A DNA stretch of 64,000 nucleotides from Datisca glomerata. Its lineage: Eukaryota; Streptophyta; Magnoliopsida; Cucurbitales; Datiscaceae. The notes below the pieces were generated by a model, which was given only the letters and a program-made list of their open reading frames with translations, did not search any database and was not told the DNA's origin. Every line of letters starts with the position of its first letter. Positions within the stretch are counted from its first letter, which is position 1. Made by a program: the position numbers and the translations under genes. Of the stretch, positions 3,555 through 58,682 are shown one piece after another. The stretch is taken from positions 1-64,000 of the forward strand of contig QANY01005796.1 in assembly GCA_003255025.1 (NCBI GenBank). Direction: 5' to 3'.

Positions 3555-3712
3555 AATACAATGATTATATTGAATTACATAAAAATGTACTAAGTCAAAT
3601 ATTACATTGAATTACATAAAAATGTACCAAGTCAAATATTACATTGAATTACATAAAAATATACTGAGTCAAATATTACATTGAATTACTTAAAAATATA
3701 CTAAGTCAAATA

Positions 3713-10640: not shown

Positions 10641-11651
10641 TATAAAGGATTTTTTCTTGTTTTAACCAGGGATCAAGGGAAAGTATATCGATAATGACTA
10701 ATTTACATAAGTATTAATTAAAAAGAGTGTGTATGTGTGTGTGTGCAGGGAGCAAAGGGTATGAGTTGAGTTTTTTTATATTGAATGTGTGTTTTTTATT
10801 TAATACATTAGTTTATATAGGCTCCTCAAATATCATGAGTTGATTAACATACCAATATAAATGAAATTACTCATTATTTCTAGGGATTACACCTGTTCTT
10901 GGGGATTACCCTGCTAGGTATGGACCCCTTACCCTTTCTCGTTTCTCATCTGTCTCGTTCAGCCACCAATCAGTCAAAAACACTTAGTGATTTCTTATGG
11001 TTTCAAGCCAATAAATCACAGCCACTTGGTGGCCTACCAATCTGTCTCATCCGAGTCATTTATCTTACCCAATCAATTACAGCCTTTTGATTATTTATTT
11101 TCGATCCCTTTTATCCGTTCCTGCTTTTCTTCTTTTCCGTTCTTGCACAGTTTGGCGAGTGCCTTCCCTGTTTTAGAGGCACGGGTCCCCGTCAGCTTTT
11201 TCTCGATAACCAGTCTACTTTTCCCATTTTGATGAGGTTTCCCACTTTCGTGCTCTTTACTATTTCTTAAGTTTCTTCCTGTTTAGAGTTCCTTGCTTCT
11301 TCTTCTTTAGAGTTCCTTCCCGTTTAGAGCTCCTTCTCATTTGACGTTTCTTCTTGTTTAGAGCTCCTTACCATTTAGAGCTCCTTCAAGTTTAGAATTC
11401 CTTCCTGTTTACAGCTCATTCCCGTTTACAGCTCATTCCCATTTATAGCTCATTCCCGTTTAGAACTCCTTCATGTTTAGAATTCCTTTCCGTTTAGAGC
11501 TCCTTCATGTTTAGAGTTACTTTCTCATGATCTGTTTGTGTTACTTTTGTTTTCTTGTCTAGCTCCCAATCTTACTATGTTCATGGTCCACACGTCCCCT
11601 TAGGATTCATTCTTTCTATACACATGTATTGAGTGATTTTTTCCCTGTTCA
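10641..11651 (-). repeat. 5' LTR of the gag-only retrotransposon
   Basis: Direct copy of 7718-8663, starting TATAAAGG (the expected TG is TA here) and ending CTGTTCA before TTACG. Its minisatellite (11281-11525) is about 58 bp longer than in the other LTR. Confidence 0.88.
11281..11525. repeat. 17-bp minisatellite within the right LTR
   Basis: About fourteen imperfect copies of the unit GTTTAGAGCTCCTTCCC, compared with eleven in the other LTR. The two arrays started identical at insertion, so the difference arose afterwards. Confidence 0.8.
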
Positions 11652-12147: not shown

Positions 12148-12275
12148 GACAAGACACAAGGAAGAGTTGACCCTTCTTGGCTAGCAGAAACTAAAAATGA
12201 ATTTTTACAAGGGTCAACCCTTCATGGATGACGTCATCTATATTTTATGCCCAAAATGAGTTTAGGTTGATTCTT
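12148..12275. other. Spacer, nothing recognised
   Basis: Holds a short inverted pair around GGGTCAACCCTTC / GAGTTGACCCTTC. A related GGGTCAACCCTTC occurs near 19713. No gene. Confidence 0.3.
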
Positions 12276-14408: not shown

Positions 14409-15716
14409 CATTGCTCAAATTATTTCCATAAAAGCATAAATGAGTCGGCATTTCAGTTCGATTCGATGATGAAATGGGGCAGAAAAAGTTTCCTTTGATT
14501 TAAACAACTAGGTTTGGTACATGGTCAGTTTTTTCTGGTTTTGAACTCCTTGGTTCGATTTGATTCCATGCGACTTAGGTGTGATTCATTTCTAGTTGGT
14601 CCGTCATATTTAGTGCTTTATTCACTCGATACACATGTTTAATTCTTCTATATTTATTTGCAATAAACACTTATAATAAAGTGTTTTAGTCATTACTTTC
14701 CACATCTTTAAACTTTCACACTTAAATTATTTGTTGTCATCAAATTTGTGACTATATATGCTGAAAATTTACTGTCGGATACTGCCATGCATTATTCGAA
14801 GATTGTATGATGAAAAAAGAAAGAGAAAATAAGAACATGAAGATATTAGCTTAACACTGATGTGGTGCCTAATCTAAAATAAGAACATGAAAATAAGCTG
14901 TCGCAATTAAAAAAAACATTTTTACAGGAAAAATAAATTTAGAGTCGCCACCAATCATTTTAGGATGTGATTGGTCACCTAATTTTAAGATGAAAATTTT
15001 GGTCTACGAAAACTCAAAGTTGGTTCGGGAGCCGTTTGTGTGTGGGGAAGGTATTAGCACCCCACAACATCCATATAAAAATGGTTACCAAATTTAAACA
15101 AATGCTATCCAATTTTTTATTTTAAGAAAAAGGTTAAAGAAATTCATTTTTGAATGTCCCATTTGGTGCATTTTGCATCATAAAATTTAACAAAATAAAT
15201 TACCTTTAATGAGTGGTTCAAAGACCATTGAAAAATTATTTTTTTTGTATTCTTAAATCTTTTTAAATCAAAGCATTATTAGAGTTATTCTCGGTATCCC
15301 AAAAATAACTCCTCATCTCAGTAGTTCGAGAAGTTTGGTATCCCAAAAATCTCAAAGTCCATCGTCGACTTTGTTTAGTGAAAATTAAATAATGGAAGTA
15401 ACAAAATCTAAATTTAATTGTTAAAATTATAATCCACACATACATGAATATTAACTATAATAATAAGGGAATAATGCAAGAATCGCATTATAAGCATGAC
15501 GATGTAAGAATGCTAAATAAATAAACATGTAAAGGAAATAAATGTTAATAATTACAACAAAAATGAAGTAAAAGAATAGAGATAAAGTTATAGGGTGTCA
15601 AATTATAGAAAACATAAAATATTAAGATTATATAAAACATGCATAAAAAGCAATACATGCAAACATAAAGTAAAAAAAATACTATGAAATAAATGAAAAA
15701 AAAATAAAAAAAGAGA

Positions 15717-15759
<43 letters not shown>

Positions 15760-16621
15760 NNNNNNNNNNTCATGGATGATAATTAGTTTAAACAAATGTC
15801 ACAAAATGATGAACATAATATTTTAAAAAAGAAAAGACTTGTAGAAAAATTGAAAATTTTAAAACTTAGATATTTGCATAATCTTGTATAGATGTTTTAC
15901 TCTCTATTTTATGTATTGTTATGTGTGAGAAATTATCCTAAGAGATCTTTGCGTCAAATGTACACTTTCAACCCATTAAAGGGTTGATTCACATTGGGTT
16001 AATTTTTCTACCCCTCAAAAGTTTTATCATCATCATCATTAATTGAGTTGATGACAAAGACATCTCATTATCTAACTTATAAAGAAATCATCAATGCATG
16101 AAAATAAAGGGTTAAGATTTAAAGGAGGAGAAATGATAAAGAATAAACAATCAACTTATTTATGAAAAAAATACAAAAGATATCAACTACATGAATATGA
16201 AGAAGAGAGATGAACAAAATATATTATGAGCAAATGTACAAAATATTTAAGCTACCTTGAGAAAAAGAATGAAAGAAGATGAAAATAATAGAAATGTAGA
16301 ACCTCTTCCTCTCTCTAAAATCACCTCTCTTTCTCACTCCAACCCCTCTCTTTCTCACTCTAAAAAATGGCTTCTTTTTATCCACTCCAAAGAGACCCCC
16401 CTCTTAAGTGAAGACCGCATCCCTATTTATAGGCGAAATTAGGGTTTGCCTTTTTTACTTTTAGTTTTTTTTTTCACTTTTTACATTTTAGTCCTTGGAC
16501 CACTTTTTCTTATTTTAGTATTGGACTAGTTTTCAAATTATACATATAGTCTTGGATTATTATATGAGCCAAAATACAAAGTATGTATATTTAATGTATT
16601 AGACCGGATAAAATATATTAC
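14409..16621. repeat. Tandem 2.2-kb unit, copy 2
   Basis: Near-identical repeat of 12276-14408. It is longer because of about 80 bp of A-rich and AT dinucleotide sequence plus the ten-N gap. In the stretches I compared by eye I saw no substitutions beyond the start, which indicates a very recent duplication or an assembly artefact. Confidence 0.85.
15721..15769. repeat. AT dinucleotide run and assembly gap
   Basis: About 39 bp of alternating A and T (15721-15759) followed by ten Ns (15760-15769). True length unknown. Confidence 0.95.
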
Positions 16622-17107
16622 TACATTGCTCAAATTATTTCCATAAAAGCATAAATGAGTCGGCATTTCAGTTCGATTCGATGATGAAATGGGGCAGAAA
16701 AAGTTTCCTTCGATTTAAACAACTAGGTTTGGTACATGACCAGTTTTTCTGGTTTTGAACTCCTTGGTTCGATTTGATTCCATGCGACTTAGGTGTGATT
16801 CATTTCTAGTTGGTCTGTCATATTTAGTGCTCTCCATAATACATCATGTGATTCACTCGATACACATGTTTAGTTCTTCTATATTTATTTGCAATAAACA
16901 CTTATAATAAAGTGTTTTACTCCTTACTTTCCACATCTTTAAACCTTCACACTTAAATTATTTGTTATCATCAAATTTGTGACTATATATGCTGAAAATT
17001 TACTGTCGGATACTGCCATGCATCATTCGAAGATTGTATGATGAAAAAAGAAAGAGAAAATAAGAACGTGAAGATATTAGCATAACACTGATGTGGTGCC
17101 TAATCTA
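16622..17107. repeat. Tandem unit, partial copy 3
   Basis: Repeats the first 480 bp or so of the unit, but with several substitutions and a 20-bp insertion (CTCCATAATACATCATGTGA, near 16832). Similarity stops at GCCTAATCTAA. It is older than copies 1 and 2, so the structure is A-B-A-B-A with the last A ancestral. Confidence 0.8.
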
Positions 17108-17440
17108 ATATACTCCGACGCTCAAGTTAGTGAAGTTAATGAGGCATAATGCTAGTAAGTGAGAGTGTGGAATGCGATGCATGTCCACAAGTTTGGTCTC
17201 TATCAATTGAGTTTTCTTTCTTGGAATATTAAATAGCTTCATATTAATTGTTGAACATGAAATATCGGTGTCGTGCATAACCTAATATACTGTGACGCTC
17301 AAGTCAATAAAATGAATGTGATAGAATTCTAATAAAATGAGAGTGTAAAATGTGATACATGTCCGTAAGTTTGACCTCTATTTATAGAGTTTTCTTGGTT
17401 GGAATATCATATAGCTCCATATTAATTTCAAAATAAAAAA
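17104..17440. repeat. Degenerate direct repeat, period about 181 bp
   Basis: Two diverged copies begin TAATATACTCCGACGCTCAAGTTAG and TAATATACTGTGACGCTCAAGTCAA. They share GAGAGTGT, CATGTCC.CAAGTTTG, CTCTAT and GAGTTTTCTT in the same order. Probably part of an old LTR or other non-coding repeat. Confidence 0.6.
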
Positions 17441-39810: not shown

Positions 39811-41275
39811 ATCTTCCACTTTCCCTAAAGTAAATGTGACATCTCTCGTAATCCCATGTTACGCACGTGACCCTCAAATGACTTTGCATGAAGTGTCTTT
39901 GTAAAAAGGCCAGCCAGGTTTTGTTCTGATGATATGTTCATAACAGTCACATCCCATCGATGCACGATCTCTCTTACAAGATGATATTTCCTCTTTATGT
40001 GCTTGCCCTCTTGTGACTCCTCGGTTCCTTGTAATTTTCTACCGCCCCACTATTATCACAGTACAGGATCAGTGGGTTGTCCATATCTGGAACTACTTCC
40101 ACATCAAAATAGAACTTTCTGAACCATTCCGCCTCTTTCGCAGCTTCACAAGCCGCTATATATTCAGCTTTTATACTTGAATCTGCAATGTTGAATTGCT
40201 TAATACTTCTCCAGACTACAGCTCATCCACCTAGGGTGAATACTGATCTAGATGTTGACTTCAACTTTCTCTGTCTAATTGAAAATTAGAATCAGTATAT
40301 CTAGTGAGGTTCAAGTATCCACCTAAATAAACAAGCATATGGTTTCTCTTTCTCTAAGATACTTGGGAATGTGTTTTTTTTACTACAATCCAGTGTTCCA
40401 AACTTGGATTCGATTGATAATGACTGACAATTCCCAATACGTAACATATATCCCTCCTTTTGTGTATAACCCTTGGCTATAGGGGAGAATGTCTCTTCGT
40501 AATCAACTCCCTCCTTTTGTGTATAGCCCTTTGCTATAGGGGAAAATGTCTCTTCGTAATCAACTCCCTCCTTTTGTGTATAGCCCTTGGCTACTAACAG
40601 TGCCATGAAAGTCTCTACTTTCTCATCTGCACCTCTTTTCTTCTTGAAGTTCCTTTTAGGCCTGAAATCTTCTGGTGAATCTATAGGTTCCCAGACATAA
40701 TTAAAATACATAGATTTTATTTCCTGATTCATGGCATCTTACCATTTCTCCTTTTCAGGATCATCCATTAATTTTTCATAAGATAATGGATCATCCTTAT
40801 TAGTGTCTGACACTAGGACATGTGCCTTCAAGTTCGTAGCGAACTGGTTGTCTCATAACCCTCCCATCGTGACGGTCCATCAAGGTTTCCTTTGCATGAA
40901 CTGTGATTTCTCTGGTTTATTGTTTATCAATAGAAATTGAAGAATCTCATCAGTCGCTAATTCCTCGAGAACTACTTTGCTATGAGGTTTGTAGTTTTTC
41001 ATATAGTCATGCTCAAGAAAGGTTACATTTATCGACACAAACACCTTTTGATCATTGTGATTACAAAAGTACCCACCTCTAGTCTCTAGAGAATAACCAA
41101 CGAATATGCATATCTCAGATGTTGAGTCCAACTTTCTGGTCTTAGGTCTAAGAACGTTAGGTGGAAACTCCCAATATACGGAAATGATGCAAACTAGGTT
41201 TGGAGCCATTTCATAACTCTAAAGGCGTCTTGCTTACAAACTTAGAAGGCACTACATTAAAAATATAAGTTTTCG
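39811..41275 (-). pseudogene. Integrase tail, partial reverse transcriptase and RNase H of copia element 3
   Basis: Minus strand: integrase tail at 41275-40880 (LDSTSEICIFVGYSLETRGG). The reverse transcriptase start is at 40732-40301, where a 57-bp segment coding KGYTQKEGVDYEETFSPIA is present in about three in-frame tandem copies (plus-strand copies begin at 40452, 40509 and 40566). Right after it the frame jumps to sequence from near the end of reverse transcriptase, so the catalytic centre is deleted. RNase H remains follow to 39811 (YTDSNFQ, LILYCDNSGAV) with stops. Confidence 0.8.
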
Positions 41276-41301: not shown

Positions 41302-41492
41302 AGTGACTACACGAGGGTCGTGTAAGCCTCATGTAGGCTACATGAGGAATATACTAGAATCGTCTATCTCTCGTATAGTCTACATGATTACTACACGAGC
41401 ATCGTGTACACCTCGTGTAGTCTACACGATGGTTGCACGAGTATAATGTACACCTCGTGTAGTCTACAAGATGACTACACGAGTATCGTGTA
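41302..41492. repeat. Palindrome family A array, left subterminal
   Basis: Degenerate copies with arms like CTCGTGTAGTCTACACGA. It opens the element and precedes the first Ulp1 exon. Confidence 0.75.
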
Positions 41493-42708
41493 TATTTCCT
41501 GATCTTATGTTTTCCTTGAATATTCTACAAGTTATGACTTTATCAAAGATGCAACTAAGATACGTCCATGACATTAACACAATTCCAAAAGCAAGGATCA
41601 ATGCAAAGTGCAATACCCACTTCATAGACGTTATCAAGACTAAGCTGATAGCTCATCAACTCTCTCTATTTAGGGAGACATGCTTTGGCCATCTTCTTTA
41701 TCTCCCAGCCTTGAAGTTTTTAGCAATTGTCTGCCACTAGTTTCTGGCTAGGGAGGTCGAATATGTCAACGACATTCAATCTGAGGAGGAAATCTAGTTT
41801 TTTTACAACGAGAAACCACTTTGCTTCTCCAATAAGGAGTTCTCGTTGATGACCGGAATAAAGTTCAGTGAATCCCCAAATGAGAAGAAGACTTATGGCC
41901 TCAATAGACTCTATGATCTGTACTTTTCTTAAATCTCAATCAATAACCATGGCTGAGTTAGAGGAGAAATTTAAAAACTCTGATTATAAGCCAGATTCTG
42001 AGGGGTCAAGATGGCTCTGATTTATTTGCAAAAGCATTTTGTGTTGGGGAAGGAGAATCGTACCCTAATTTAGAAGAGATGGTTGGTTTTGGTTGACGAC
42101 CTTGAAGCATTCAACCAATGTCTGTGGGGAGAACTCTTGTTGTCCAAAACCATAAAATCATTATTAGCTGCGAAAAATACAAAGGCTGTTTTTTGTGATC
42201 TTAAAGATCGAGGAAAAAAACACAGAAATCCCCCGCTGCTGCTCATGGGTATTCACTCATTGAATGTCCATTTGCCTTTCAGGTACAATTTATTTAATTA
42301 TATGTAGTGATGTACTAAATTATTTATGTGTTGAATACTGAATTACTACTCTTTTGTTTAAATAGGCATGGGTATTTGAAACTATCCCCTTAGTGGGTAG
42401 TTTGTATGGTAACGAGGTTTCGACCAAGGTGCCAAAGATTCTTAAATGGTGTCCGACCATAATAGTACTGATTGAGAATATTCAAAAAGAATTTTTTTTA
42501 AGGAGAATGTATGTTGGTGAATTATTTTTACAAGTTAATTTATATTACTTTCACATATACTGATTTATATTTCTTACATTTTTAGTTGACAATTCTTTCC
42601 TTAGTCCCCCTACTGAGGAGGAAGAAGTAAAAAGCTTCTGGAGATTAGTTGTTGGACAGAAGGTATGTTCAAAATTATTTTCTAGCCTTCTTCTTTTTGA
42701 ACACGGAC

Positions 42709-42872
42709 CTCGTGTAGTCCACATGATGATTACACGGACCTCATGTAGTCATCGTACGATGGTTACACTGATCTGGTAACATCGAGGCTAGACGACTGCA
42801 CGAAGTCTGTGTAACCATCGTGTAGTCTTCAGGATGACTACGCGAGCTCCGTGTAACCATCGTGTAGTCACA
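42709..42872. repeat. Palindrome family A array in the 42663-42912 intron
   Basis: Copies such as CTCGTGTAGTCCACATGATG and CATCGTGTAGTCTTCAGGATG, wholly inside the intron bounded by GTATGT and TTTTTTTAG. Confidence 0.8.
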
Positions 42873-43884
42873 TTTTTTTGTTTTGTCTTCTTAATATTAC
42901 ATGTTTTTTTAGTCGACGCCTCCTCCATCACCCTTTCCAGTAGAAGATGAGGCTAATGAAGAGGAGAAGGCGATTGAAAAGAAAGAGGAGAAGAAGAGGA
43001 AGAGGTAAGAAGATGCCATTGAAAAAATAGAGGAGAAGAAGGTTGTGTCCAAAAAGTTCAGTGGACATGAATATTGGGTGAGGAAATGTCTGATTAGAAT
43101 GGACCAAAAGATCACATCAATGGATAAAAATATTTTGTCCATTCAATCATAAATTTCTTTTGCAATTTCACAAATTAAAAATTTGCTGGATCATCTGATA
43201 ACATCGAGGCCAAATGATTACTCATTTTGTCCTCGATCTACCATGATTATGTCTAGCGATGGGGATGATATGGAGATTGAGAAGGAAGTGAAAAAAATGA
43301 AGAAGGAGAGAAGGATGAAAAAGAAGAAGATATGGTAGAGAAGGAAGAAAAAGATGAGATGGTTGAGAAGAACAACATGTTGCACCGATAATATCTGCAT
43401 AGAAGAAAAGGAAGGTAATAAGGAGAAGGAATGTGAAAAGAAGGAAGATGAAGAAAAACCAGACGGGAAAAAAGAAATAAAAAAAGAAATAGAAGAGAAA
43501 AAAGAAGAAGAAGAAAAAACAAAAGAAGAAGAAGAAAAAAAAGAAGAACAACATGTTGCACCGATAATATTTGCATTGATGTATTTGGTTCTGCCAACAG
43601 AGCAGTCCAACGATGGAGAAGAATAAGAGCTCGTCTTCCTTGGCGAACTTGGTAAGAGGACGATAAAAAGAGTCACCTAATTTGGAAAACGAAAAGGTTT
43701 GAAAAGAAAAACAACGAAGGAAAAAAGATGATGAGAATATCATTGCCAAAACTGACTTCAAACCTTTTCGAGCATATGGTGATGTATCTTCTGAGGATGA
43801 AACCCGTTTTAAAGCCTGGTTGACCTCCTCAAGGGAAAAGTAAGTTCTGTAATTTTCTTGTACACTTATTATTCGTATGTCAAG

Positions 43885-44095
43885 ATGGTTACAGTGACAT
43901 CGTGTAGACTACACGATGGTTACAGTGACATGGTTACACGGACCTCGTGTAGCCATCGTGTAGACTATACCATGGTTACACGAAATCAGTATAAGTATCG
44001 TGTAGACTATATGATGGTTACACGAGATCAGTACAACCATCGTGTAGACTATACGTGGTCCATGTAACCATCGTGTAGTAAATCAATCGTGTACC
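43885..44095. repeat. Palindrome family A array in the intron after exon 4
   Basis: About six copies around CATCGTGTAGACTA.ACGATGG. It begins about 45 bp after the donor GTAAGT at 43840 and ends shortly before the next exon. Confidence 0.8.
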
Positions 44096-44439
44096 TATCT
44101 TTGATCTATACTTACGCTGCACATGAATGAGAAAATAGACGTTGGATTTTACACCGTTGACCTTACCCGATTCAAAAAAGTAATCTCTTCACCTTATCAA
44201 TGACTTGAGTCAGATGTAAGAAGTTATTTATAATCTTTTTTAATGTGGTATTTAAAATAATTATAAATATCTTAACTAATCTTTATTACATTGCACCATA
44301 TCAATGCATACCTGGAGCTCATGAGGAGAGATTTGCAACAATACAACCCTCAAATCAGAATCAGTGTTAATGATTTATTTCTACAAGTAAGCATGATTTG
44401 TTTTTGAACTTAATGAACTGCACACCGTATTCTATGGGC

Positions 44440-44610
44440 CTTATGTAAACTTTGTGTAGACTACACGAGTACATCACGCTCATTCATGTAGACTTTATGT
44501 AGACTACACGAGGCCTTCACGCTCCTTCGTGTAGACTACACGAGGCCTTCACGGGTCTTGTGTAGGCTTCACGTACCTCGCGTAGACTTCGTGTAGTCTT
44601 CGTGACCTTT
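44440..44610. repeat. Palindrome family A variant array in the 44387-44654 intron
   Basis: Variant copies (TCGTGTAGACTACACGAGGC and similar), again confined between the donor at 44387 and the acceptor at 44654. Confidence 0.8.
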
Positions 44611-45150
44611 TCTATTGACATTCAGGATTTTAATATTTTCTCGTAACATTACAGGAGAACCTTTCTGGCCGAATGGCAGAGTTTGAGCAAGATCCTACGG
44701 GCTGGGATATTGACGTTGTTGATCAGCACCAGTACCTGGTCCTCAACTTGCTAACGAACTTTGGAAGGAGCTGAGAACAGTCAGATAATGTTATCTTTCC
44801 AATGAATGTGAACCATAGTCATTGGATTGCGGTTAAGCTTGATTTGATTGGCCAATGTATTCATATTTATAACTCAAGGAACACGCCATATCAACGCTCC
44901 TTGTACATTGAAATAATGAAACCTTTCATGAAGATTGTCCCTTGGCTTGCTCAAATGATGAATATTTATGAGAGAAGATAGGAGGTTCAACCCAAATATA
45001 AGTGAAAATATGAGATCATGAAGTGTCCTCAATAAGAGAATGTGTAAGTGAAATATACATTTTTTGAAAGTCCGCTTAAATTTTCATATGTATTATGTAA
45101 TTGCGTTTTTGCATTTCATGTGTTTTTTTAGGTTTGATTGTGGGGTATTT

Positions 45151-46134
45151 ACCCTTAAGTTTATCGAAGCCCTCGTATATGGAAAGAACCTCCAAGAAAT
45201 AAATCAACAATAAATGCCAAAATATCGAAGACGATTTGCACTTGAGTTATTTGCACGTGGCAATGTTGTACCGAAATAATATGGATATATTTTATGGATT
45301 TTTATTTTATTAAATTGTGAGTTATGGATTATAGAAATATACTTGTGTTTGTTATTTAATAATGTCATAAATTTTAATTAGCATACCTAAATCCTAAACG
45401 ATGCCCGTGAAGTTCTCATGTAGTCTACACGATGCCCGTGAAGTTCTAGTGTAGTCTACACGATGACTACATGATTCTTGTGAAGTCATCTAGTATAGTC
45501 TACACGATGCCCGTGTAATCATCGTGTAGTCTACATGATGACTACACGATGCTAGTGAAGTTCAGTGTAGTCTACACGGTGCCCATGAGGTTTTAGTGTA
45601 GTCTACATGATGACTACACGATGCTCGTGAAGTTCTCATGTATGCTACACGATGCCCGTGAATTTAATTTAAGTCTACAAATGTCATTATTTATGTTTAA
45701 GTGGCTTGGTCATTCTAATGTCATTGAAGTTCTAGTGTAGTCTACACAATGCCCGTGAAGTCATCATGTAGTCTACCAATCCTACATGAATCCCGTGAAG
45801 TTCTCATGTAGGATTCAGGCAGGTTAAACTTTATGACACTATTGAATAACAAACACAAGTATATTTCTATATTAATATTTAATTTAAGTCTACAAAGGTC
45901 ATTGTTTATGTTTTAGTAGCTTGGTCATCCCGTTGAGATAAAATAATTAGATTTCTGCATGTTTGTCGGTTGTGACCAATTCGCTCACAACGTTTGCACT
46001 TCCTTTTCACTGCTTCCTCACCTATAGATGAAATTCTTTGTGTCCTAGCTCTTCCAATTTTCCGCCTCGTTATATGTGGCAATACCACTTTTTCATAAAC
46101 CTCCTGGTTGATGACCCAATCTGCTTGATCCCTG
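45151..46134. repeat. Tandem duplication of 984 bp, copy 1
   Basis: Spans the end of the last Ulp1 exon, a family A array (about 45400-45820) and the last codons of the transposase zinc knuckle. The next 1015 bp repeat it nearly exactly. Confidence 0.92.
45400..45820. repeat. Palindrome family A array between the two convergent genes
   Basis: Units of about 31 bp of the type GATGCCCGTGAAGTTCT.GTGTAGTCTACAC. The duplicated array is at about 46380-46835. Confidence 0.85.
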
Positions 46135-48180
46135 ACCCTTAAGTTTATCGAAGCCCTCGTATATGGAAAGAACCTCCAAGAAATAAATCAACAACAAATG
46201 CCAAAATATCGAAGACGATTTGCACTTGAGTTATTTGCACGTGGCAATGTTGTACCGAAATAATATGGATATATTTTATGGATTTTTATTTTATTAAATT
46301 GTGAGTTATGGATTATAGAAATATATTTGTGTTTGTTATTTAATAATGTCATAAATTTTAATTAGCATACCTAAATCCTAAACGATGCCCGTGAAGTTCT
46401 CATGTAGTCTACACGATGCCCGTGAAGTTCTCATGTAGTCTACACGATGCCCGTGAAGTTCTAGTGTAGTCTACACGATGACTACATGATTCTTGTGAAG
46501 TCATCTAGTATAGTCTACACGATACCCGTGTAATCATCGTGTAGTCTACATGATGACTACACGATGCTAGTGAAGTTCAGTGTAGTCTACACGGTGCCCA
46601 TGAGGTTTTAGTGTAGTCTACATGATGACTACACGATGCTCGTGAAGTTCTCATGTATGCTACACGATGCCCGTGAATTTAATTTAAGTCTACAAATGTC
46701 ATTATTTATGTTTAAGTGGCTTGGTCATTCTAATGTCATTGAAGTTCTAGTGTAGTCTACACAATGCCCGTGAAGTCATCATGTAGTCTACCAATCCTAC
46801 ATGAATCCCGTGAAGTTCTCGTGTAGGATTCAGGCAGGTTAAACTTTATGACATTATTGAATAACAAACACAAGTATATTTCTATATTAATATTTAATTT
46901 AAGTCTACAAAGGTCATTGTTTATGTTTTAGTAGCTTGGTCATCCCGTTGAGATAAAATAATTAGATTTCTGCATGTTTGTCGGTTGTGACCAATTTGCT
47001 CACAACGTTTGCACTTCCTTTTCACTACTTCCTCACCTATAGATGAAATTCTTTGTGTCCTAGCTCTTCCAATTTTCCGCCTCGTTATATGTGGCAATAC
47101 CACTTTTTCATAAACCTCCTGGTTGATGACCCAATCTGCTTGATCCCTGAGAGGATGTATTATTTCCACAAACGCAGCAATTAGAGCCTCATTTTTGTAG
47201 AACCTCGAACACATATTGTATGCGAAAATATTGGCCTACATGCAGCCAACACATGCTTGCATGGAATTTGATCAAGATTAATATATCTGCATGTACAAGT
47301 CTTAAGATGCAAGTTTACCACTACTTCCTTACCCCCACCCATAACACAAAACTCGTGGATGTTAGAAGGAAATAATGATAGTGTACGTGATGTAAGATGC
47401 TTCTTATTAAGCTCAGTCTCAACCCAATCTGTCATCTACGAGGTGATTTGACAGGCAGCCATCCGTCATTCATAGAACCATAGTTGTAACATGTTGCGAA
47501 TATGTTCTATAAGGCATATAATGGGACGCTTTGTAGCATCCTTCAAAACCTCATTCAAACATTCTGTGATGTTTATAGTCATTATATTGTATCGCCTTAC
47601 ATGAAAACGGGAACTTGCTCAACTCCCCCCCACCGACACATATTGTGAAATATCTGGAAATGCATCTGTAAAATAAATCGTCAACCGATCAAATTCTGAT
47701 TGATGGTATACCTTTGCTTCTTTAAAAAACAATGCGATCGCATCTTCATTTTTATACATTGATTTGATATTTTGACCCATATGGAAGATGAAAGCTCCAT
47801 GAAGCGCATTGGGAAAGACAACATGTATAGTATTTAGTATACTTGTATGCCTGTAAGATATTAATACCAAGTCTTCTGAATCACCGATTACATTGTGAAG
47901 TTTACGGAAGAACCATTCCCATGAATCATAATTTTTCCGAATATGCAATTCCAAATGCAATGAGATATACTTTGTTGTTCCCATTCTTTGCTTTTGCAAC
48001 AAATAATATCCCTTTATATTTGGCTTTTAAGCCGGTTGCGCCAACACCAATGACAGACCGTATACAGCTGAAAAATCCACGAACAGAGGGTCCAAGAGCC
48101 ATGAAAAATATTCAAAATGATCCTGCTCATCGGTCTCTAGTTGTGTTGTTGTCCCTGAAAAATATTTAATATTACTGTTT
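45906..48180 (-). pseudogene. mudrA-like MULE transposase with SWIM finger and zinc knuckle, inactive
   Basis: Minus-strand order: a block at about 48150-48050 with LKAKYKG, where the usual VDGTHL is VGATGL, so the first catalytic Asp is gone. The core at 48002-47619 has YDSWEWFFRKLHNVIG and LVLISYRHTSIL, where the usual ISDRH is ISYRH: the second Asp is also lost. The SWIM finger at 47435-47181 is CTCRYINLDQIPCKH (CxC...CxH). After a frameshift, 47214-46921 ends in the knuckle CKRCEQIGHNRQTC. A duplicated C-terminal tail (46088-45906, CKRCERIGHNRQTC) follows from the 984-bp duplication. Confidence 0.82.
46135..47149. repeat. Tandem duplication, copy 2 (1015 bp)
   Basis: Same as 45151-46134 plus exactly one extra 31-bp repeat unit in the array (near 46400-46440). 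At the codon after INQQ this copy keeps CAA (46197 region), whereas copy 1 has the stop TAA, so that stop arose after the duplication. Confidence 0.92.
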
Positions 48181-48424
48181 ATACTTTGAGGGGTCTATTT
48201 GGAGTTTTTAATGCAATATACCCAATAACTCATGGTAAGTACAATTAGTAGATATCTCCAATAATTTGGTCTCTCCACTAAAAGACCATATTATACCATT
48301 TTTCACCCAATCTCCATCATGTATTACAAAATTTGAACTTCAGATATATCTGTATATACATCAATGAAGAAAGTCAGTAGAAGGAGACTACATAATGAAA
48401 TAGAATATTACAGGATGCGTGTGA

Positions 48425-48870
48425 TCATCATGTAGTGTAAACACAGCTTTCACGGGCATTGTGTAGTGTACCCGAGGCCTTCACGAGTATAGTGTAGACC
48501 TCGTGTACTGTAATAAGCCCTACACGATGCTTGTGTAGTTCCATCGTGTAGACTACATGATGATCATGTAATCCCATCGTGTAGACTACATGATGATCAT
48601 GTAATCCCATCGTGTAGTGTACACGAGGAGCACACGATCATCATGTGGTCATTTTGTACTCTACACGATAAAATTACACGTTGATCTTGTAGTCCTCATG
48701 TAGTGTAATAGATGCTACACGATACTCGTGAATTGCTGAAGAAGTTCTTGATGCACTATATGATGATCGAGTAGTGTACACGAGGTCTACACAGAGCTCG
48801 TGTACCTTTTGCATGTAGTCTACACGATGACTACATGAGGCTCGTGTAGTACTCGTGTAGACCTCCTTTT
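48425..48870. repeat. Palindrome family A array, right subterminal
   Basis: Includes three successive copies of CCATCGTGTAGACTACATGATGATCATGTAAT-type units (48540-48610) and degenerate units to 48870. It lies between the transposase start and the terminal repeat. Confidence 0.82.
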
Positions 48871-48889
48871 AGAATACACCATCATCTTA

Positions 48890-49396
48890 TAGTTATTCTA
48901 TACAATAAATGAACTTTAAACAACGTTTCAGAAAGAAGAAAACAAATAAATATTCTCAAAAAACTCATGAAAGTGAAAAACCAATGAAAGAAGGAAGAAG
49001 ACAAGTAAATATTTTTAGTAAGAAGAAAACAAAACATATAACTGTTCCAGAGAGAAGAACTAGAAATCCTTTGTTGTTGCTAGAAGAAGGAAGAAGACGA
49101 AGAAGAAAATGAAGAAGAAGACGAAGAGGAAAATGAAGAAGAAAACGAAGAAGAAAATGAAGAAGAAGTAGAAAAAATGAAAAATGAAGAAGGAAAAATG
49201 AGATAGGGTGGGTATGGAGGTATTGAGTGTTAAGTGAGTAGAACATGAAATTTGATTGGACAGCTTGTAAGAAGGGTAATGGGAGAAAAAGTAAAAGAGT
49301 GAAGGAAAAGTGAGCCCGAGATCTGGGTAACCGAAAATTAGTGTCAGGGTCCATTTCTGCAAAATGGTTAGTATATGGGTCCACTTTAGCAAAAAA
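48890..49396 (-). repeat. Terminal repeat, right end of the Kaonashi-type MULE
   Basis: Reads inward on the minus strand: TTTTTTGCTAAAGTGGACCC, then CAGAAATGGACCC, then CT-rich CTTCTTC runs, ending around AACGTTGTTTAAAGTTCATT. The same order appears on the plus strand from 50282. The CT-rich part produces long Phe/Leu-rich frames with no meaning as proteins. Confidence 0.78.
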
Positions 49397-50281
49397 CCCT
49401 AAAGATTACTGCTTTTAGAAAAGGAAATAACGAAACCCTAGCTTAAAGTTAAAGAAAGCAAGAAAAGAGGGGAAGAAAAGAAAAGGGTGGTCGCCTCTCC
49501 ACATGCTTGCGACCTGGGTAGTCATGTCCACTTTTGTGAGTCTATATGTTCACGTGAAAACCATCAAGACTGATCAAGGTGTTCAGTTCAACTATATACT
49601 GAACTGAAATGAACCGTGAATGTTATATGAATCAAACTAAATGTTATATGATCAGGATGGTCAGTTCTTCGGCTCAAAGGCAATTGGTTGAACAGAGACA
49701 ACAAGACAAAAAAAGGACAGAGATGGCAAAACAAATCATAGTTCTAATTCCAATTCTCTTTTTGATTCTTAAATCAGCATAGTTCAAATCTAAATCAGTA
49801 TATATAAAAAAAACCCTAAATCAATCAAACCCTAAATAACCCCTAAATCAATTGATGAATAACTCTAAAATTAAAATATTACCCTAACTAAATCACTATA
49901 TATAAAACTTAAGCTTTCATTGATATCATCTAAGAGGTGGAGGTGGAGTTGAAATGGATGCGTGGAGGGAGTAGAAATAGTGGGAGCTGAACAATGGGCC
50001 AAATGTTTGCATGAAATAAGAGAAGTCTTAGATGGATAAGGAACTAAAGGACCTTTCCATTTGACTTCACTAACCGACGTTCTATTTTCTTTAGAAAATT
50101 CTTGGAGCTTCTATTGCTTCAACTCGACGTGTAAACTCTTCACGATCTCCACCTTTCTCTTTCTCTCTTCAAATGCCTCAAGTAGGGGAACCTCTTCCTT
50201 AGCTTTAGTGCTCTCAAGAAGATCTCACCAAAAAATTTTAGGAGCGTCTCTCGTGAAGAAGGGAACCAATTGCGCCACATG
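49397..50281. other. Spacer between two facing element ends, with a possible coding remnant
   Basis: Between the two terminal repeats. The minus strand at about 50215-49930 translates without bias toward repeats (LESTKAKEEVPLLEAF, RKVEIVKSLHVELK, one stop, EFSKENRTSVSEVKWKG). This looks like a gene piece I cannot name. The rest is AT-rich. It may be the original host DNA between two insertions. Confidence 0.35.
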
Positions 50282-50620
50282 TTTTTAGCTAAACTAGATC
50301 CTAAACTAATTATTTTGTAGAAATAGACTCATACTTTAATTTTTGTTTACCCTAGCCCCTAGCCCACCTTTCACTAGAAATAATTTTCTGAAATTACATG
50401 TTTACCCTTCACCTCATTTCTCCTTCTTCATTTTTCATTTTTTCCACTTCTTCCTTTTCTTCTTTGTCTTCTTCTTCGTCTTCTTCCTTCTTCATGCAAT
50501 AGCAAAATATTTACTTATTTTCTTCTTCTTGCTCAAAAAATTTATGGAAATTATTTTCTTTATTTTTAGGAACGTTGTTTGAAGTTCATTTAGTTATTTT
50601 TTCTCGAAAGCGTGAATTTT
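50282..50620 (+). repeat. Terminal repeat, left end of the second element
   Basis: Inverted relative to 48890-49396 and diverged from it. The two termini face each other across 885 bp. Confidence 0.75.
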
Positions 50621-50727
50621 AGAGGAAATTTGATGAGTTTTGTAAATTTTAGTTTTTACCCAGATTTGAGAGAGAGAACCGGTAGAGAGAGAGAGAGAGA
50701 GAGAAAATGGGTTTTGTTAATTTTTGG

Positions 50728-51000
50728 ATTACACGATGCCGTGCACTGGAGTCGTGTAGCCATCATGTAGTCTACACGATCGCTACACGACGTTGGTGTA
50801 CCCCCATCGTGGTATCTACCCGATGAGTACACTCGCATCGTGTAGACTACATGATGGCTGCACTGGATTCGTGTGACCATCATGTAGACTACATGATAGG
50901 TACACTAGCATCATGTTTGCATCGTGAAATCATCGTGTAAACTATATAATTGAAAAATGGGCATCGTGTAACCATCATATACACTATACAATGGGAAAAC
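50728..51000. repeat. Palindrome family A array
   Basis: Copies with ATCGTGTAGACTACATGATGG; preceded by a GA dinucleotide run (50688-50704). Confidence 0.82.
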
Positions 51001-51184
51001 ATGCATCTTCTATCAAGAATACTTCTAAAATTGAAGAATAAAATATAGTCTCAAGTATTTAAATAATTCAGTAAAATTTTCTAATGTTTCTGGTCTGATA
51101 AACTTACGGATGGTGTAACTTTTGATTCGGGTTGAACCATGTGGCCCATAAGATATCAAATTGAAGCTTATTCAGAGATCTATA

Positions 51185-51790
51185 CATTCGACTAAGTTTA
51201 CTCATCAAAGTCCAGCTTCAAGCCAAAAAACACTATTTCAAGCACTTTTAGAGATTTGAAGTTATTTCGATCATAAAATTGGGAACACAGGATAGAAGAT
51301 GGGTACACGGGAAGTGTGTGGCCATTATGTAGTCTACACGATACCAATGTACCCATCGTGTAGTCTACACGATGGCTACATGATGCTAGTATACCCATCT
51401 CGTAGACTACACGATGCAAGTGTACCCATCGCGTAGACTACACGATGGCTACACGATGCCAGTATACCCATCTCGTAGACTACACGATACCAGTGTACCC
51501 ATCACGTAGACTACACGATGGCTACACGATGTCAGTGTACCCATCGTGTAGTCTACCCGATACTAATGTACCCATCGTGTAGTCTACGCGATGGCTACAC
51601 AATGCCACTGTACCCATCATGTAATATACATGATGGATACACGATGTCAGTGCTACACGATGTCAGTGCTACACGATGCTAGTGTACCTACAGTATAGTT
51701 TACAGGATGACTACACGATTCCAATGTACCCATCGTGTAGTCTACACGATGCCTACTCGATGTCAGTGTACCCATCGCGTAGTCAACAGG
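51185..51790. repeat. Block P1: family A array with 31- and 42-bp units
   Basis: Starts with a unique lead (CCAAAAAACACTATTT.AAG) shared with 53210, then dense palindromes. The 42-bp unit adds GGCTACACGATGCCAGT to the palindrome. Frames translating as SCSHRVDYTMGTL are repeat artefacts. Confidence 0.88.
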
Positions 51791-51829
51791 AGAGGAGAAG
51801 AAAAGTATAACAATAAAATATTTACTTAT

Positions 51830-52890
51830 TGTAGTCTATAAGGGAAGAAAATCAGCATCCGGTTACCTCCCTGTAGTATTTTTATACTACTTGAACCCTT
51901 CAAGTAGTTTTTTTCTCTTGAATTCTATTGTCTAGTAAGGAAAAACTACTTGAAGAGTTCAAGTAGTAAAAAATTACTACTTGAACCTTTCGAGTAGTAA
52001 AAAAATACTATTTGAGCTATTCAAGTAGTGATGAGTTTACTGGACAATAAATTTCAGGAGGAAAAAAACTACTTGAATAGTTCAGGTAGCATAAAATTGC
52101 TACTTCATGTAGCAGAAGTCTCAACAAAATCTTAACAATATCAAAAGTTGTTGAATCGTTCACGATTCCCAATAAATCGATCTTCTAAAGCCTGTTGAAC
52201 CCTATGCAGAAGCTTAAAATTAGGACCGAAATAACTTCTGGGCCTCTGAAAGTATTTAAAACAATGTTTTTTGGACCTGAAATTGGGCTGCGACAAGTTA
52301 ACCTAGTCAAACATGTATATCTCTAAATAAACATTGATTTATATCTTACAAGCCACGTAGATCCACCGAATCAAAAGTTATGCCTTTTGAAAGTTGACAT
52401 ACGCGTGCCACGATCCATTGTTCAAGAAATTTTAAAGCTGCATTGTCCGCATTACTACTTGAACTCTTTAAGTAGTGAAGATCTTACCGGACAATAGCCT
52501 TAAAAAAACTACTTGAAGCGTTCAAGTAGTTAAAAATTACTACTTGAAACTTTCAAGTAGTCACATGCTCACTGAAAAATTGATTGCAAGAATCAAACTG
52601 ACTACTTAACGGGTTCAAGTAGTTGAATCTGACTACATGAACCCTTTAAGTAATATTTTTTGGTACTTTCAGAATCAAGATCACTAGTTGAAGGGTTCAA
52701 GTAGTCAAATACAACTACCTAAACCCTTCAAGTAATATTTGTTTTATTTTACTTTCAAAATCAAAATCGCTACTTGAAGGGTTCAAGTAGTCAGATACAA
52801 CTACTTGAACCCTTCAAGTAATATTTTTTTTACTTACAGAATCAAAATCACTACTTGAAGAGTGCAAGTAGTCAGAATCAAAATCATTAC
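51830..52890. repeat. Block Q1 with family B palindromes
   Basis: Palindromes with arm ACTACTTGAA, three spacer bases (CCC or GGG) and arm TTCAAGTAGT; a perfect one is at 51886-51908. Arrays at 51870-52110 and 52450-52890 flank about 340 bp of unique-looking sequence that recurs at 54300-54570 and 55450-55745. Confidence 0.88.
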
Positions 52891-53209
52891 TGGCATCGTG
52901 TAGACTACACGATGGGTACACTAGCATCACATTTACGTCGTGTAGCTATCGTGTAGACTAGACGATGAAAAAATATGCATCGTGTAGACTAAACGATGGA
53001 AAAATGGGCATCATGTAGCCATCGTGTAGACTATACGATGGGAAAACAGATATCTTCTATCAAGAATACTTCTGAAATTGAAGAATAAAATATAGTCTCA
53101 AGTATTTAAAAAATTCATTAAAATTTTCTAGTGTTTCTGGTCTCATAAACTTCCGGATGATGTAACCACGTGCCCGTAAGACATCAACACATGCGACTGA
53201 GTTTACCCA
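52890..53209. repeat. Family A array and shared lead sequence (block R2)
   Basis: Family A copies to about 53045, then a lead (TATCAAGAATACTTCT.AAATTGAAGAATAAAATATAG in split form) that also occurs at about 51000-51180. Confidence 0.8.
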
Positions 53210-53950
53210 TCAATCCCCAGTTTCAGGCCCAAAAAACACTATTTTAAGTAATTTTAGAGATTTGAAGTTATTTTGATAATAAATTTGGGTATATGGGCTA
53301 CAAGATGGGTACATGGGAGGCTTGTAGCCATCGTGTAGTCTACACGATGCCAGTGTATCCATCGTGTAGTCTACACGATGACTACCCGATGCCAGTGTAC
53401 TCATCCCTTAGACTACACGATGGCTACACGATTCCAGTGTACCCATCGCTTAGACTACACGATGGTTACACGATGCTAGTATACCCATCGTGTAGTCTAC
53501 AAATAGTTACACAATGCTAATGTACCCATCGTGTAGTCTACACGATACTAGTGTACCCATCGTGTAGTCAACACGATGCTAGTGTATCCATCATGTAGTC
53601 TACACGATGCTAGTGTACCCATCGTTCAGTCTACACGATGCTAGTGTACCCATCGTGTAGTCTACACGATGTAGTCTACATGATGGCTACACAATTCATT
53701 GTACCCATCGTCTAGTCTGCATGATGGCTACACGATGCCATTGTACCCATCGTGTAGTCTGCATGATGGATACACGATGTCAGTGCTACACGATGCTAGT
53801 GTACCTATCGTATAGTCTACACGATGGCTACACGATTCTAGTGTGCCCATCGTGTAGATTACTCGATGGCTACAAGGAACTAGTGTACCCATCGTGTAGT
53901 CTACACGATGGCTACACGATGTCAGTGTACCCATCGCGTAGTCTACAGGA
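53210..53950. repeat. Block P2: densest family A array
   Basis: Same lead as block P1 followed by more than fifteen palindromes. A perfect one, arm CATCGTGTAG, one T, arm CTACACGATG, is at 53360-53380. Runs of a 31-bp unit lie at 53520-53680. Confidence 0.9.
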
Positions 53951-53959
53951 GAGGAGAAG

Positions 53960-54570
53960 AGAAATATAACAATGCAATATGTACTTCTTGTAGTCTATAA
54001 GGGAAGAAAATCAGCATCTGGTTACCACTCTGTAGTATTTTTTATAATACTTGAACCCTTCAAGTAGTTTTTTTCTCTTGAAGTCTATTGTCTAGTAAAC
54101 AAAGACTACTTGAAGCGTTCAAGTAGTAAAAAATTACTACTTGAACCCTTCAAGTAGTAAAAAAATATTATTTGAACTATTCAAGTAGTGATGAGTTTAC
54201 TGGACAATAAACTTCAGGAGGAAAAAAATTATTTGAATGGTTCAAGTAGTATATAATTGCTACTTCATGTAGGAGAAGTCTCAACAAAATCTTAATAATA
54301 TCAAAAGCTGTTGAATCGTGCACGATTTCCAATAAATTGATCTTCTAAAGCCTGTTGAATCCTATGAAGAAGCTTAAAATTACGACCGAAATAACTTTTG
54401 GGCCTCTGAAAGTATTTAAAACAATTTTTTCTGGACCCGAAATTGGGCTGTGACAAGTTAACCTGGTCAAACATGTATACCTCTAAATAAACTTTGATTT
54501 ATATCTTACAAGCCACGTAGATCCACCGAATCAAAAGTTATGCCTTTTGGAAGTTGACATGCGCGTGCCA
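53960..54570. repeat. Block Q2 with family B palindromes
   Basis: Second copy of the first part of Q1. It is cut at CCATTG near 54578, where family A resumes, so the second family B array of Q1 is missing here. Confidence 0.88.
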
Positions 54571-55110
54571 CAATCCATTGTGTAGATTACACGATACCAA
54601 TGTAGCCATCGTGTAGTCTACACGATGCCAGTTTACCCATCATGCAGTCTATACAATGGTTACACGATGCCAGTGTACTTATCCCTTAGACTACACAGTG
54701 GCTACAAGATGCCAGTGTACCCATCGCATAGACTACATGATGGTTACACGATGCCAGTGTACCCATCGTGTAGTCTACAAATAGTTACACAATGCTAGTG
54801 TACCCATCATGTAGTCTACATGATGCTAGTGTACCCATCGTGTAATGTACACGATGTTAGTGTACCCATGATGTAGTCTACATGATGGCTACACGATGTC
54901 ATTGTACCCATCGTGTAGTCTACATGATAGATACACGATGCGAGTGCTACACGATGCTAGTGTACCTATCGTATAGTCTACACGATGGCTACACGATTCC
55001 AGTGTACCCATTGTGTAGACTACTCGATGGCTACAAGATTCTAGTGTACCCATCGTGTAGTCTACACGATGGATACACGATGTCAGTGTACCCATCGCGT
55101 AGTCTACAGG
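54570..55110. repeat. Family A array (block P3)
   Basis: Units of 31 and 42 bp, again ending in CATCGCGTAGTCTACAGGAG as in blocks P1 and P2, then the next Q block. Confidence 0.88.
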
Positions 55111-56100
55111 AGAGGAGAAGAGAAGTATAACAATGCAATATTTACTTCTTGTAGTCTATAAGGAAAGAAAATCAACATCTGGTTACCTGCCTGTAGTATT
55201 TTTTTATACTACTTGAACCCTTCAAGTAGTTTTTTGTCTCTTGAAGTCTATTGTCTAGTAAGCAAAGACTAGTTGAAGAGTTCAAGTAGTAAAAAATAAC
55301 TACTTGAACCCTTCAAGTAGTAAAAGAATATTATTTGAATCATTCAAATGGTGACGAGTTTATTGGACAATAAACTTCGGGAGGAAAAAAATTACTTGAA
55401 GGGTTCAAGTAGCATAAAATTACTTCTTGATGTAGTAGAAGTCTCAACAAAATCTTAACAATATCAAAAGTTGTTAAATCATGCACGATTTCTAATAAAT
55501 CGATCTGTCAACACCTGTTGAATCCTATGAAAATGCTCAAAGTTACAACCAAAATAACTTATGGGTCTCTGAAAGTACTTAAAACAATGTTTTTATGACC
55601 CGAAACTAGGTTGCGACAAGTTAACTTGTTCAAGCATGTAGATCTTTGAATAAACTTTGATTCATATCTTACGGACCAAGTGGATCTACCCGAGTCAAAA
55701 GTTATGTCTTTTGGAAGTTGGCATGCGCGTGCCACGATCCATTTGTTCTATAAATTCTAAACCTGCATCGTCCGCATTACTACTTGAACCCTTTAAGTAG
55801 TGACAAGCTTACTAGACAATAGACTTAAAAAAATTACTTGAAGGGTTCAAGTAGTAAAAAATGACTACTTGAACATTTCAAGTAGTCATATGCTCACTGA
55901 AAAATTGACTGCAGGAATCAAGCTGATTACTTGAAGGGTTCAAGTAGTTGAATCTGAATACTTGAACCCTTCAAGTAATATTTATTTATACTTTCAGAAT
56001 TAAAATCACTATTTGAAGGGTTCAAGTAGTCGGATACAACTACTTGAACCTTTCAAGTAGTCGGATACAACTTGTTGAACCCTTCAAATAATACTTCTAA
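55110..56100. repeat. Block Q3 with family B palindromes
   Basis: Third, more diverged copy of block Q, with both family B arrays (55195-55430 and 55775-56100). Like Q1 it has the GTCCGCATTACTACTTGAA junction. Confidence 0.88.
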
Positions 56101-56735: not shown

Positions 56736-56994
56736 ATGGAAATTTTTCTTGCAGTTGCAGGTAAAGTTGTCGAATACACAGTTGCACCAAATGGAAGACA
56801 ATTGGGCTATCTGTTATTCTACAAATGAAACATCAACGAACTCAGAGAAAAAGTTAAGATGTTGGGGATAGCTAAAACAGGGGTGGGCCATAGGGTTGAA
56901 GAGGCTATAGCAACAAAAGCTGAAGAGATTGAAGTTAATGTTCAAAAATGGCTGAACCATGTTAACGAGATCACTGACAGAGCAGAGAAGTTTT
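56736..56994 (+). pseudogene. CNL disease-resistance gene, coiled-coil end (5' piece)
   Basis: Starts MEIFLAVAGKVVEYTVAPNG, RQLGYLLFYK, a TGA stop, then NINELREKV and EEIEVNVQKWLNHVNEITDR. This is the N-terminal coiled-coil of the RPS2/RPS5-related CNL group (At4g27190-like) from memory. It ends at AEKF where a copia element begins; the gene resumes at about 59889. Such proteins sense pathogen effectors in the cytoplasm or at membranes. Confidence 0.82.
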
Positions 56995-58550
56995 GAGAAT
57001 CACAATTATGTAGAGTATTAACAAAGTAGCAGAAGAGGACTTACCAATACGTAAAGAGTCAATAGTTTTATTTAGTTTGAGAACAGAATGAAGAGTGCCA
57101 GCACTATGTTGAGTACTAGAAGTTGGCATAAAAGATTGCAGAAAAAATAACACAGAAAAACAATTCTCATCAATAGATGGAGAACTAGTAGAAGAATGTA
57201 GATCAGTTGATAAAGTAGGAGAAGAGGCAAAAGGAAACACGCTCTCATCAAATACAACATGTTTAGAGGTATAAATTTTATTGGTAGTTTTATCATAGCA
57301 TATGTAACCTTTTTGATTCATAGGATAAGTAATCTTTTTGATTCATAGCATAGCCAAGAAAAATACATTGAATAGCGCGAGAAGAAAACTCATTCTTCAT
57401 ATAAGATCTAAGACTTGGGTAACAAGCACATCCAAAAACTTTTAATTGTTTATAATCTGGAAGTTTACAGAAAAGTTTGTCAAAGGAAGAAATATGATTA
57501 AGGACAACACTAGGCATCTGTTAATTAAGTAGACAGATGTAGCAAAGGCGTAATTCCAAAAATGAAGAGGAACAGATGCATGATTCATAATGGTGAGGCC
57601 AGTCTCAACAATGTGTGTGTGTTTCCTCTCAGCAACTCCATTTTGTCGAAGGGTGTACGGACAAGTCTTTTGATGTAAAATGCCGATGATCATTAAGATA
57701 TGTTTCAAAATAATTACTAGTAAATTCTCCTCCTCCATTAGTACGAAGGTTGTTAATTCTAGTAGAAATCATGTTCTCAACTAAGGGTTTAAACCATTTG
57801 AAAACATGAAGCACATCATATTTGTTGGAAATGGGAAAGAACCAAGTGAATTTTGACATATCATCTATGATCAAGAAAGGTTGTTGTGGGAGAGGGACCC
57901 CACACATCACTGTCAATCAGAGAAAGAGGAGATAGAGAAACATATTCAGAAGTGGGAAAAAGAAAGTCTAGGCATCTTATTAGTAATACAACTAGTACAA
58001 ATGCATTTATCCAGATTCACAGAAGTACAAGGTATATTAGATCTACTTAAAATCTGTCTAATAGTTTGAGAAGAAGGATGACCAAACCGAGAATGCCAAA
58101 TGAGATATGAAGTTCTTGAACCATGATAGGCAACAATAGCTTTCAGTATAGAGGAAGGAATGAGATTAATTCCATCGACACTGGCCCCTTTATGCAATAT
58201 GTCCCTTGTTGCCTTGTCCTAGATCCAGAAAAAGGGAGCATCAAAGATAAAGGCAATTATTATCAAAACAAAATTGGTAGACGGAGAGAAGATTAGTAGA
58301 TAATTGAGGGAAACAAAACACTTGAGATAAAGGAAAAGAAGTATATGAAGTTTTAAGAATACTGGAATCTCTATGGGAAATTGGCAATGACTGACCATTG
58401 CCAATAGAGACAGTTTCATCCCCGTTATATAATGAAGAGTTGACAAGGTTGTTCATGTCATGTGTGAGGTGGGTGTTACAACCAGTGTCAGTAAGCCATA
58501 CCTGTGCTTCACTGAGATTAGGAGATTGGTTCATGGTTGTCATCACAGAA
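56995..58550 (-). pseudogene. Protease and integrase of copia element 4
   Basis: Protease at 58546-58241 keeps its catalytic triplet in VWLTDTGCNTHLTHD. The integrase zinc region is at 58197-57946 (SYLIWHSRFGHPSSQTI, CICTSCITNK), the core at 57916-57442 in two frames (NGVAERKHTHIVETGLTIM), and the tail at 57517-56990 (FGCACYPSLRSYMKNEF, GYICYDKTTNKIYTSKHVVF). Frameshifts near 57680 and 57300. Confidence 0.8.
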
Positions 58551-58682
58551 AAGTTGGAAGAGGGGCCTTTCCCTTGATAAGAAAAATTGAGTCTATGATA
58601 GCACTCATAGCTGAATGCTCAAATTTTTTGGCAAATCTAACATTGCACCTTATGTTTCTGAAGGCCATTGTTGAGTTCGGGA

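Follow-up and report, generated by a model that had tools for sequence, protein, structure and literature searches.

The window analysed here is a stretch of 64,000 nucleotides of the Datisca glomerata genome (contig QANY01005796.1, positions 1 to 64,000), and a 14.8-kb part of it is densely occupied by a near-palindrome of 21 bp, termed family A, in which two 10-bp half-sites surround one base (CATCGTGTAG-N-CTACACGATG). This block is made up of two Mutator-like elements (MULEs) and not of one, because one terminal inverted repeat (TIR) closes a coding element and another opens a second element less than 1 kb further on (Table 1). The original prediction had described a single MULE that codes for a transposase and a DUF1985-Ulp1 protein; the domains were indeed found, in broken form, but the TIRs divide the block in two.

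The coding element (about 41.3-49.4 kb) contains remains of DUF1985, Ulp1 and a convergent transposase and has one TIR, and its Pfam domains DUF1985, Peptidase_C48 (C48), MULE and SWIM are each interrupted by stops or frameshifts. The transposase and the DUF1985-Ulp1 gene lie on opposite strands. A arrays are found on the 5' side of each of the two, in the space where their 3' ends converge, and in the stretches, presumed to be introns, that separate the exons for DUF1985 and Ulp1, as is also the case in a relative of 9.65 kb (L026+L027). All twelve places at which arrays had been predicted coincide with a family A cluster, and the predicted unit lengths of 31 and 42 bp were confirmed; the array at 46.4 kb is, however, not a separate one, as it arose with the 3' part of the transposase in a tandem duplication of about 1 kb (45151-47150, 96% identical) of the array at 45.4 kb. 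No left end was found for the coding element, and homology to its relatives begins at about 41305, beside a copia-like fragment. Copia-like fragments, so labelled from reading their open reading frames (ORFs), flank the MULE block on both sides on the minus strand (39828-41218 and 56974-58618).

The second element consists, from 50.3 to 56.1 kb, of repeated modules of 1-2 kb, where sites of family A take turns with those of a second palindrome, family B. Its right end was not found. The TIR of about 95 bp was revealed by comparison with ten other A loci. Two compact non-coding relatives (L022+23 and L032+33) have TIRs, one of those in L022+23 being weak (70%), together with exact 9-bp target-site duplications (TSDs), a match of 9 of 9 that random position pairs reached in 2 and 1 of 300 trials; the three remaining non-coding A loci, of five, show a single or a partial match to the TIR, and the 9.65-kb element has both TIRs but no clear TSD. 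The ends of the relatives are of the GGGTTTTTTGCTAAA type with 9-bp TSDs, and neither the 3-bp TSD nor the ends of CACTA elements were found; a TSD of 9 bp is the mark of MULEs.

Table 1. Features of the two elements and their palindrome arrays (window coordinates).
Feature	Position	Strand	Remarks
A array 1, 42-bp units, including variant CCTCATGTAG-G-CTACATGAGG	41302..41493	.	5' of DUF1985-Ulp1 gene; cluster start 41307
DUF1985 remains	41777..42157	+	PF09331, E 7e-10; stops in frame; homologous to VANC21 DNA-bound region
A array 2	42708..42867	.	between DUF1985 and Ulp1 exons
A array 3, 42-bp units	43898..44094	.	between DUF1985 and Ulp1 exons
A array 4	44450..44596	.	between DUF1985 and Ulp1 exons
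Ulp1/Peptidase_C48 remains, two frames	44775..45255	+	FDCGVF motif at 45133
A array 5, 31-bp units	45394..45771	.	between converging 3' ends
A array 5b	46378..46826	.	~1-kb tandem duplicate of array 5
MULE transposase remains	45909..48111	-	domain matches about 48111-45954; broken, split by duplication
MULE domain	47939-47769	-	26.7 bits, E 7.6e-6; just under Pfam cut-off 27.6
SWIM domain	47321-47238	-	30.7 bits, cut-off 19.6
Zinc knuckle zf-CCHC_2 in transposase		-	weak, 11.5-18.3 bits, below cut-off 27
A array 6	48315..48892	.	5' of transposase, subterminal
TIR ending coding element	49307..49399	-	~93 bp, 86% to TIR majority sequence
9-bp flank TTGCGCCAC	50270..50278	+	left half of possible TSD; no right partner found
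TIR opening second element	50281..50375	+	82%
A arrays, second element	50729..51782	.	50729-50993 and 51323-51782
Family B, first two blocks	51886..52872	.	
A arrays of repeated module	52894..53993	.	52894-53040 and 53298-53993
Family B block	54046..54250	.	
A array, last module copy	54576..55154	.	cluster start 54576
Family B, last two blocks	55208..56092	.	

Family A is far from what chance would produce. With up to 3 mismatches there are 59 matches in the window versus none in 100 shuffles, and at up to 6 mismatches 92 non-overlapping sites lie between 40 and 57 kb. Single half-sites (10 bp, up to 2 mismatches) number 253 in the window, and the 22 of them outside 41.0-56.2 kb correspond to background (19-35 in ten Markov simulations of 64 kb). 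The whole genome (678 Mb) has 6,133 places at up to 1 mismatch, while a reversed control gave none; the variant with a central G is rarer (159 places), and the exact palindrome was not found in viral contigs.

The arrays also have a regular geometry. Across 11 loci the centre-to-centre spacing of A palindromes is chiefly 31 or 42 bp, and 177 of 214 neighbouring palindromes lie within 1 bp of a multiple of 10.5 bp. When each distinct spacing is counted once per locus, 49 of 81 qualify, and since 24% of integers do so, the binomial chance is 2e-9, a figure that assumes independent spacings and is weakened by tandem copying. The observed/expected ratio of CpG is 0.83-1.34 in eight A arrays versus 0.40-0.67 in four other stretches, in part because the motif itself contains CpG. 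Selection on single A sites was considered as well: a mask derived from the window alone made the palindromes better conserved than the linkers in five of five loci, an excess that was not significant with an unbiased mask, and the idea was dropped.

The evidence supports the conclusion that the A arrays belong to the lineage of DUF1985-Ulp1 MULEs and are not a free satellite. Ten A loci of 20 kb each were taken from the first places of the exact-match list, two near contig starts being skipped (C12 and C23:3952). Five of them contain DUF1985, four of these also C48 and transposase pieces, and five have no coding match. Ulp1 runs in reverse to the transposase in the window and in all four sampled loci that have both (L024+25, L026+27, L028+29 and L030+31), the last of which is rearranged, with a DUF1985 piece and Ulp1 on opposite strands. 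The DUF1985 search of the genome yielded 2,290 first-look candidates, and the best 150, which were scored, all exceeded the cut-off. Some of these places recur in the exon-only and lineage-pattern searches and have a DUF1985 match without stops, which makes them candidates for intact copies of the lineage. With a query that joined the 5' array to the DUF1985 exon, 40 of 3,178 candidates were scored, and all 39 non-self places gave a single alignment across the exon and all or part of array 1, starting at query positions 51-69 in 37 cases and at 101 in two. A copy of the exon at C32:652187 has three exact A palindromes within 1 kb.

A broader view is given by proximity: 21 of 80 G-centre A loci lie within 8 kb of a listed DUF1985 or C48 place, compared with a mean of 0.74 and a maximum of 5 after random shifts. 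The 80 loci derive from 100 of the 159 G-centre places, two of the 21 are loci that had served for pattern design, the gene lists were compiled by hand, and the window's own places were omitted (two of 37 for family B, one of 100 for C48, and the exon-only self match). Since not every gene is listed, 21 of 80 is a minimum. Arrays spread independently of MULEs, for example as a satellite, were not what the association tests revealed; this proximity, the five of ten loci with MULE genes or DUF1985 and two others with TIRs and TSDs speak against a free satellite.

The second palindrome, family B (ACTACTTGAA-NNN-TTCAAGTAGT), has 28 matches in the window versus 0 expected, interleaved with A at 51.9-56.1 kb, and 22,097 places genome-wide (control 1). 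Its phasing is weaker than that of A (16/28 and 14/28), and the CpG ratio in two B blocks is 0.2 and 0.37. All palindromes had been taken to share one design within this kind of element, which does not hold in detail, as outside the window the listed places of B differ from those of A. No B palindromes (arms of 10, up to 1 mismatch) occur in the ten A loci either, and thus the mixture of both families in the window looks local. Outside the window, 0 of 32 loci of a rare B variant lie within 8 kb of a listed DUF1985 or C48 place; counting the window the figure is 1 of 33, as the B site at 52508 is 7.4 kb from the window's C48 motif at 45133. Pointing the other way, there is a C48 (Ulp1) motif at a distance of 4.3-5.8 kb from one B cluster (C7:11233-12743), and two B loci are within 15 kb of a listed one. 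That family B is part of the same system as A is unproven.

Further repeats were noted in the remainder of the window. A third palindrome, TGCTAGACC-WT-GGTCTAGCA, occurs at 6487, 7174 and 7203, surrounded by degenerate copies (6487-7222), and it is followed by 17-bp arrays at 8343-8534 and 11306-11516. A direct repeat with a spacing of about 2.1-2.2 kb extends from 12274 to 17112, with runs of N at the joints; 12274-13557 and 14411-15694 are 99.8% identical, and 13559-14881 and 15774-17112 are 97.6% identical. On the minus strand at 3315-4318 there are ORFs which, from reading their translation, we take to resemble another MULE transposase and a plant mobile domain. At another locus (L036:2282-3085) four 194-bp tandem repeats lie downstream of an open DUF1985 ORF; VANC proteins are described as having tandem peptide motifs in variable regions in the available part of PMC5735166.

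What might the arrays be for? VANC21 of Arabidopsis is a protein that attaches to the DNA of a transposon and relieves its silencing. The DUF1985 family is homologous to that part of VANC21 which is bound to DNA in a solved complex (alignment A1 took in 27 of 33 proteins), and structure comparison gave no credible match besides VANC21. Judged from this homology and from the placement of the arrays, family A probably represents multi-site binding platforms for a VANC-like DUF1985(-Ulp1) anti-silencing protein of its own lineage. The protein would be supplied by a functional copy at some other genomic position, its DUF1985 region would bind the half-sites of about 10 bp, probably as symmetric pairs, neighbouring sites would be occupied on one face of the helix, and silencing would be stripped from the whole element, so that non-autonomous relatives with A arrays could respond in trans.

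It should be noted that several observations weigh against such a role. The window's own genes are dead, its DUF1985 by itself matches VANC21 weakly (E 0.79), and the structure that serves as a model is that of a distant paralogue, with 22% identity. The arms of family A do not covary beyond within-locus permutation (802 of 2000 permutations reach the observed value), and with the unbiased union mask the palindromes are not significantly more conserved than the linkers between copies (p values of 1, 0.24, 0.22, 0.25 and 0.069). The published VANC21 motif is no palindrome, and its copies in the arrays all point the same way, unlike family A (available part of PMC5735166), and together with the two null results this leaves room for neutral growth of the arrays. 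The array-plus-exon list favours copies that bear arrays and contains 16 of the 39 non-self matches of the exon alone, and DUF1985 lineage-pattern places on C5, C37 and C49 have no listed A palindrome within 70 kb, counting exact ones only. As to whether the arrays occur only with the DUF1985-Ulp1/transposase clade, they are enriched near the listed genes, but for 59 of the 80 G-centre loci the gene lists, which are incomplete, show no neighbour within 8 kb.

Among the alternatives, it seems unlikely that the arrays are subterminal transposase-binding sites on which a transposition complex is built. CACTA elements offer a precedent, as they have repeated, inverted short sites for TNPA near their ends and a 3-bp TSD. 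The arrays resemble these in being repeated and inverted near the ends; they lie close inside the TIRs on the transposase side (48315-48892 in the window, 3890-4334 in L026), and compact elements that have 9-bp TSDs but no coding match have kept them. Yet arrays of the same density occur at a distance from the ends, both between the DUF1985-Ulp1 exons and in the intergenic space. Moreover, the second gene of the element codes for a protein related to one that is known to bind arrays, and the relatives differ from CACTA elements in their MULE-type TSDs, in their TIR and in having arrays between exons. Anti-silencing thus fits better than transposition, because the arrays are also located between exons and between genes.

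At least as unlikely is that the arrays are neutral minisatellites, expanded by slippage and hitch-hiking with an abundant MULE, the palindromy and spacing being by-products of the founding unit. The missing covariation and excess conservation would be explained in this way, as would array lengths that appear variable (many array-plus-exon matches have extra array alignments beside them) and the duplication and repeated modules of the window. However, one palindrome is embedded in differing linkers and in units of different lengths (31, 33, 42 and 43 bp), it occupies matching positions in different copies, and its phasing of about 10.5 bp extends across distinct spacings, which founder units by themselves do not predict. 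Binding of a host factor, in which case the MULE would be exploiting an enhancer or insulator, is very improbable, for although dense, phased and near-identical sites would resemble arrays for host transcription factors, in the tests made they are associated with one MULE lineage, and the element encodes a relative of the DNA-binding VANC21.

Returning to recognition by a VANC-like protein, a more specific version can be put forward only tentatively, namely that anti-silencing of the VANC type can rely on a code that is symmetric and in phase with the helix, in which half-sites about 10.5 bp apart, 21-bp palindromes and a pitch of three or four turns might load VANC-Ulp1 cooperatively on one face of the DNA. 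If true, at least two separate systems of such palindromes, of about 6,000 and 22,000 sites, would coexist in one plant genome. Phased palindromes would suggest that a short, weak motif is made specific by array geometry and cooperative binding, and such arrays could then serve as ready-made, sequence-specific platforms for epigenome editing. The proposed role would carry the VANC/VANDAL picture beyond Arabidopsis into another plant genome, where the motif is built very differently, and it provides a concrete candidate binding site for the Ulp1-carrying relatives of VANC.

The closest known systems are VANDAL21 with VANC21 and VANDAL6 with VANC6, in which a MULE likewise has a DUF1985 protein next to its transposase; the statements on them that follow are limited to the available part of PMC5735166. 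VANC21 motifs lie in tandem repeats that change fast; these are located upstream of VANA21 and within introns of the genes VANC21 and VANB21, positions that resemble those of the A arrays. Related VANDAL families have differing motifs and a variable copy number of the arrays, and one motif is shared with an unrelated element, AT9TSD1. The Arabidopsis motifs have 8-9 bp (YAGTATTAY, AGTTGTMC) in contrast to the 21-bp palindrome, and the half-sites of family A occur in both orientations, as palindromes. Unlike VANDAL21 and VANDAL6, the present elements have an Ulp1 domain in the gene, TIRs of about 95 bp and a pitch of mostly 31 or 42 bp; such a TIR contrasts with the absent or degenerate TIRs expected of VANDAL elements, but in the table of PMC6446971 the VANDAL group has TIRs of 46-174 bp.

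A second likeness is to KAONASHI (KI-MULEs) and Ulp1 MULEs, for which the available parts of PMC2528002 and PMC13317346 describe an Ulp1 domain reversed relative to mudrA. KI-MULEs are described there as non-TIR elements, in contrast to the TIRs in the window, and palindromic, phased arrays are not mentioned for them in these parts. The accessible portion of the review PMC13317346, citing Sasaki 2022 EMBO J, describes VANC genes that carry Ulp1, whose function there is unknown, and attributes to a KAONASHI VANC gene with Ulp1 the recognition of motifs in its own kind. A palindromic, phased array design was not found in the partly available literature searched, whose coverage leaves out most subscription papers. 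Thus, while the VANC/VANDAL kind of system itself is known, the palindrome and its phasing of about 10.5 bp are new in comparison with the published VANC motifs.

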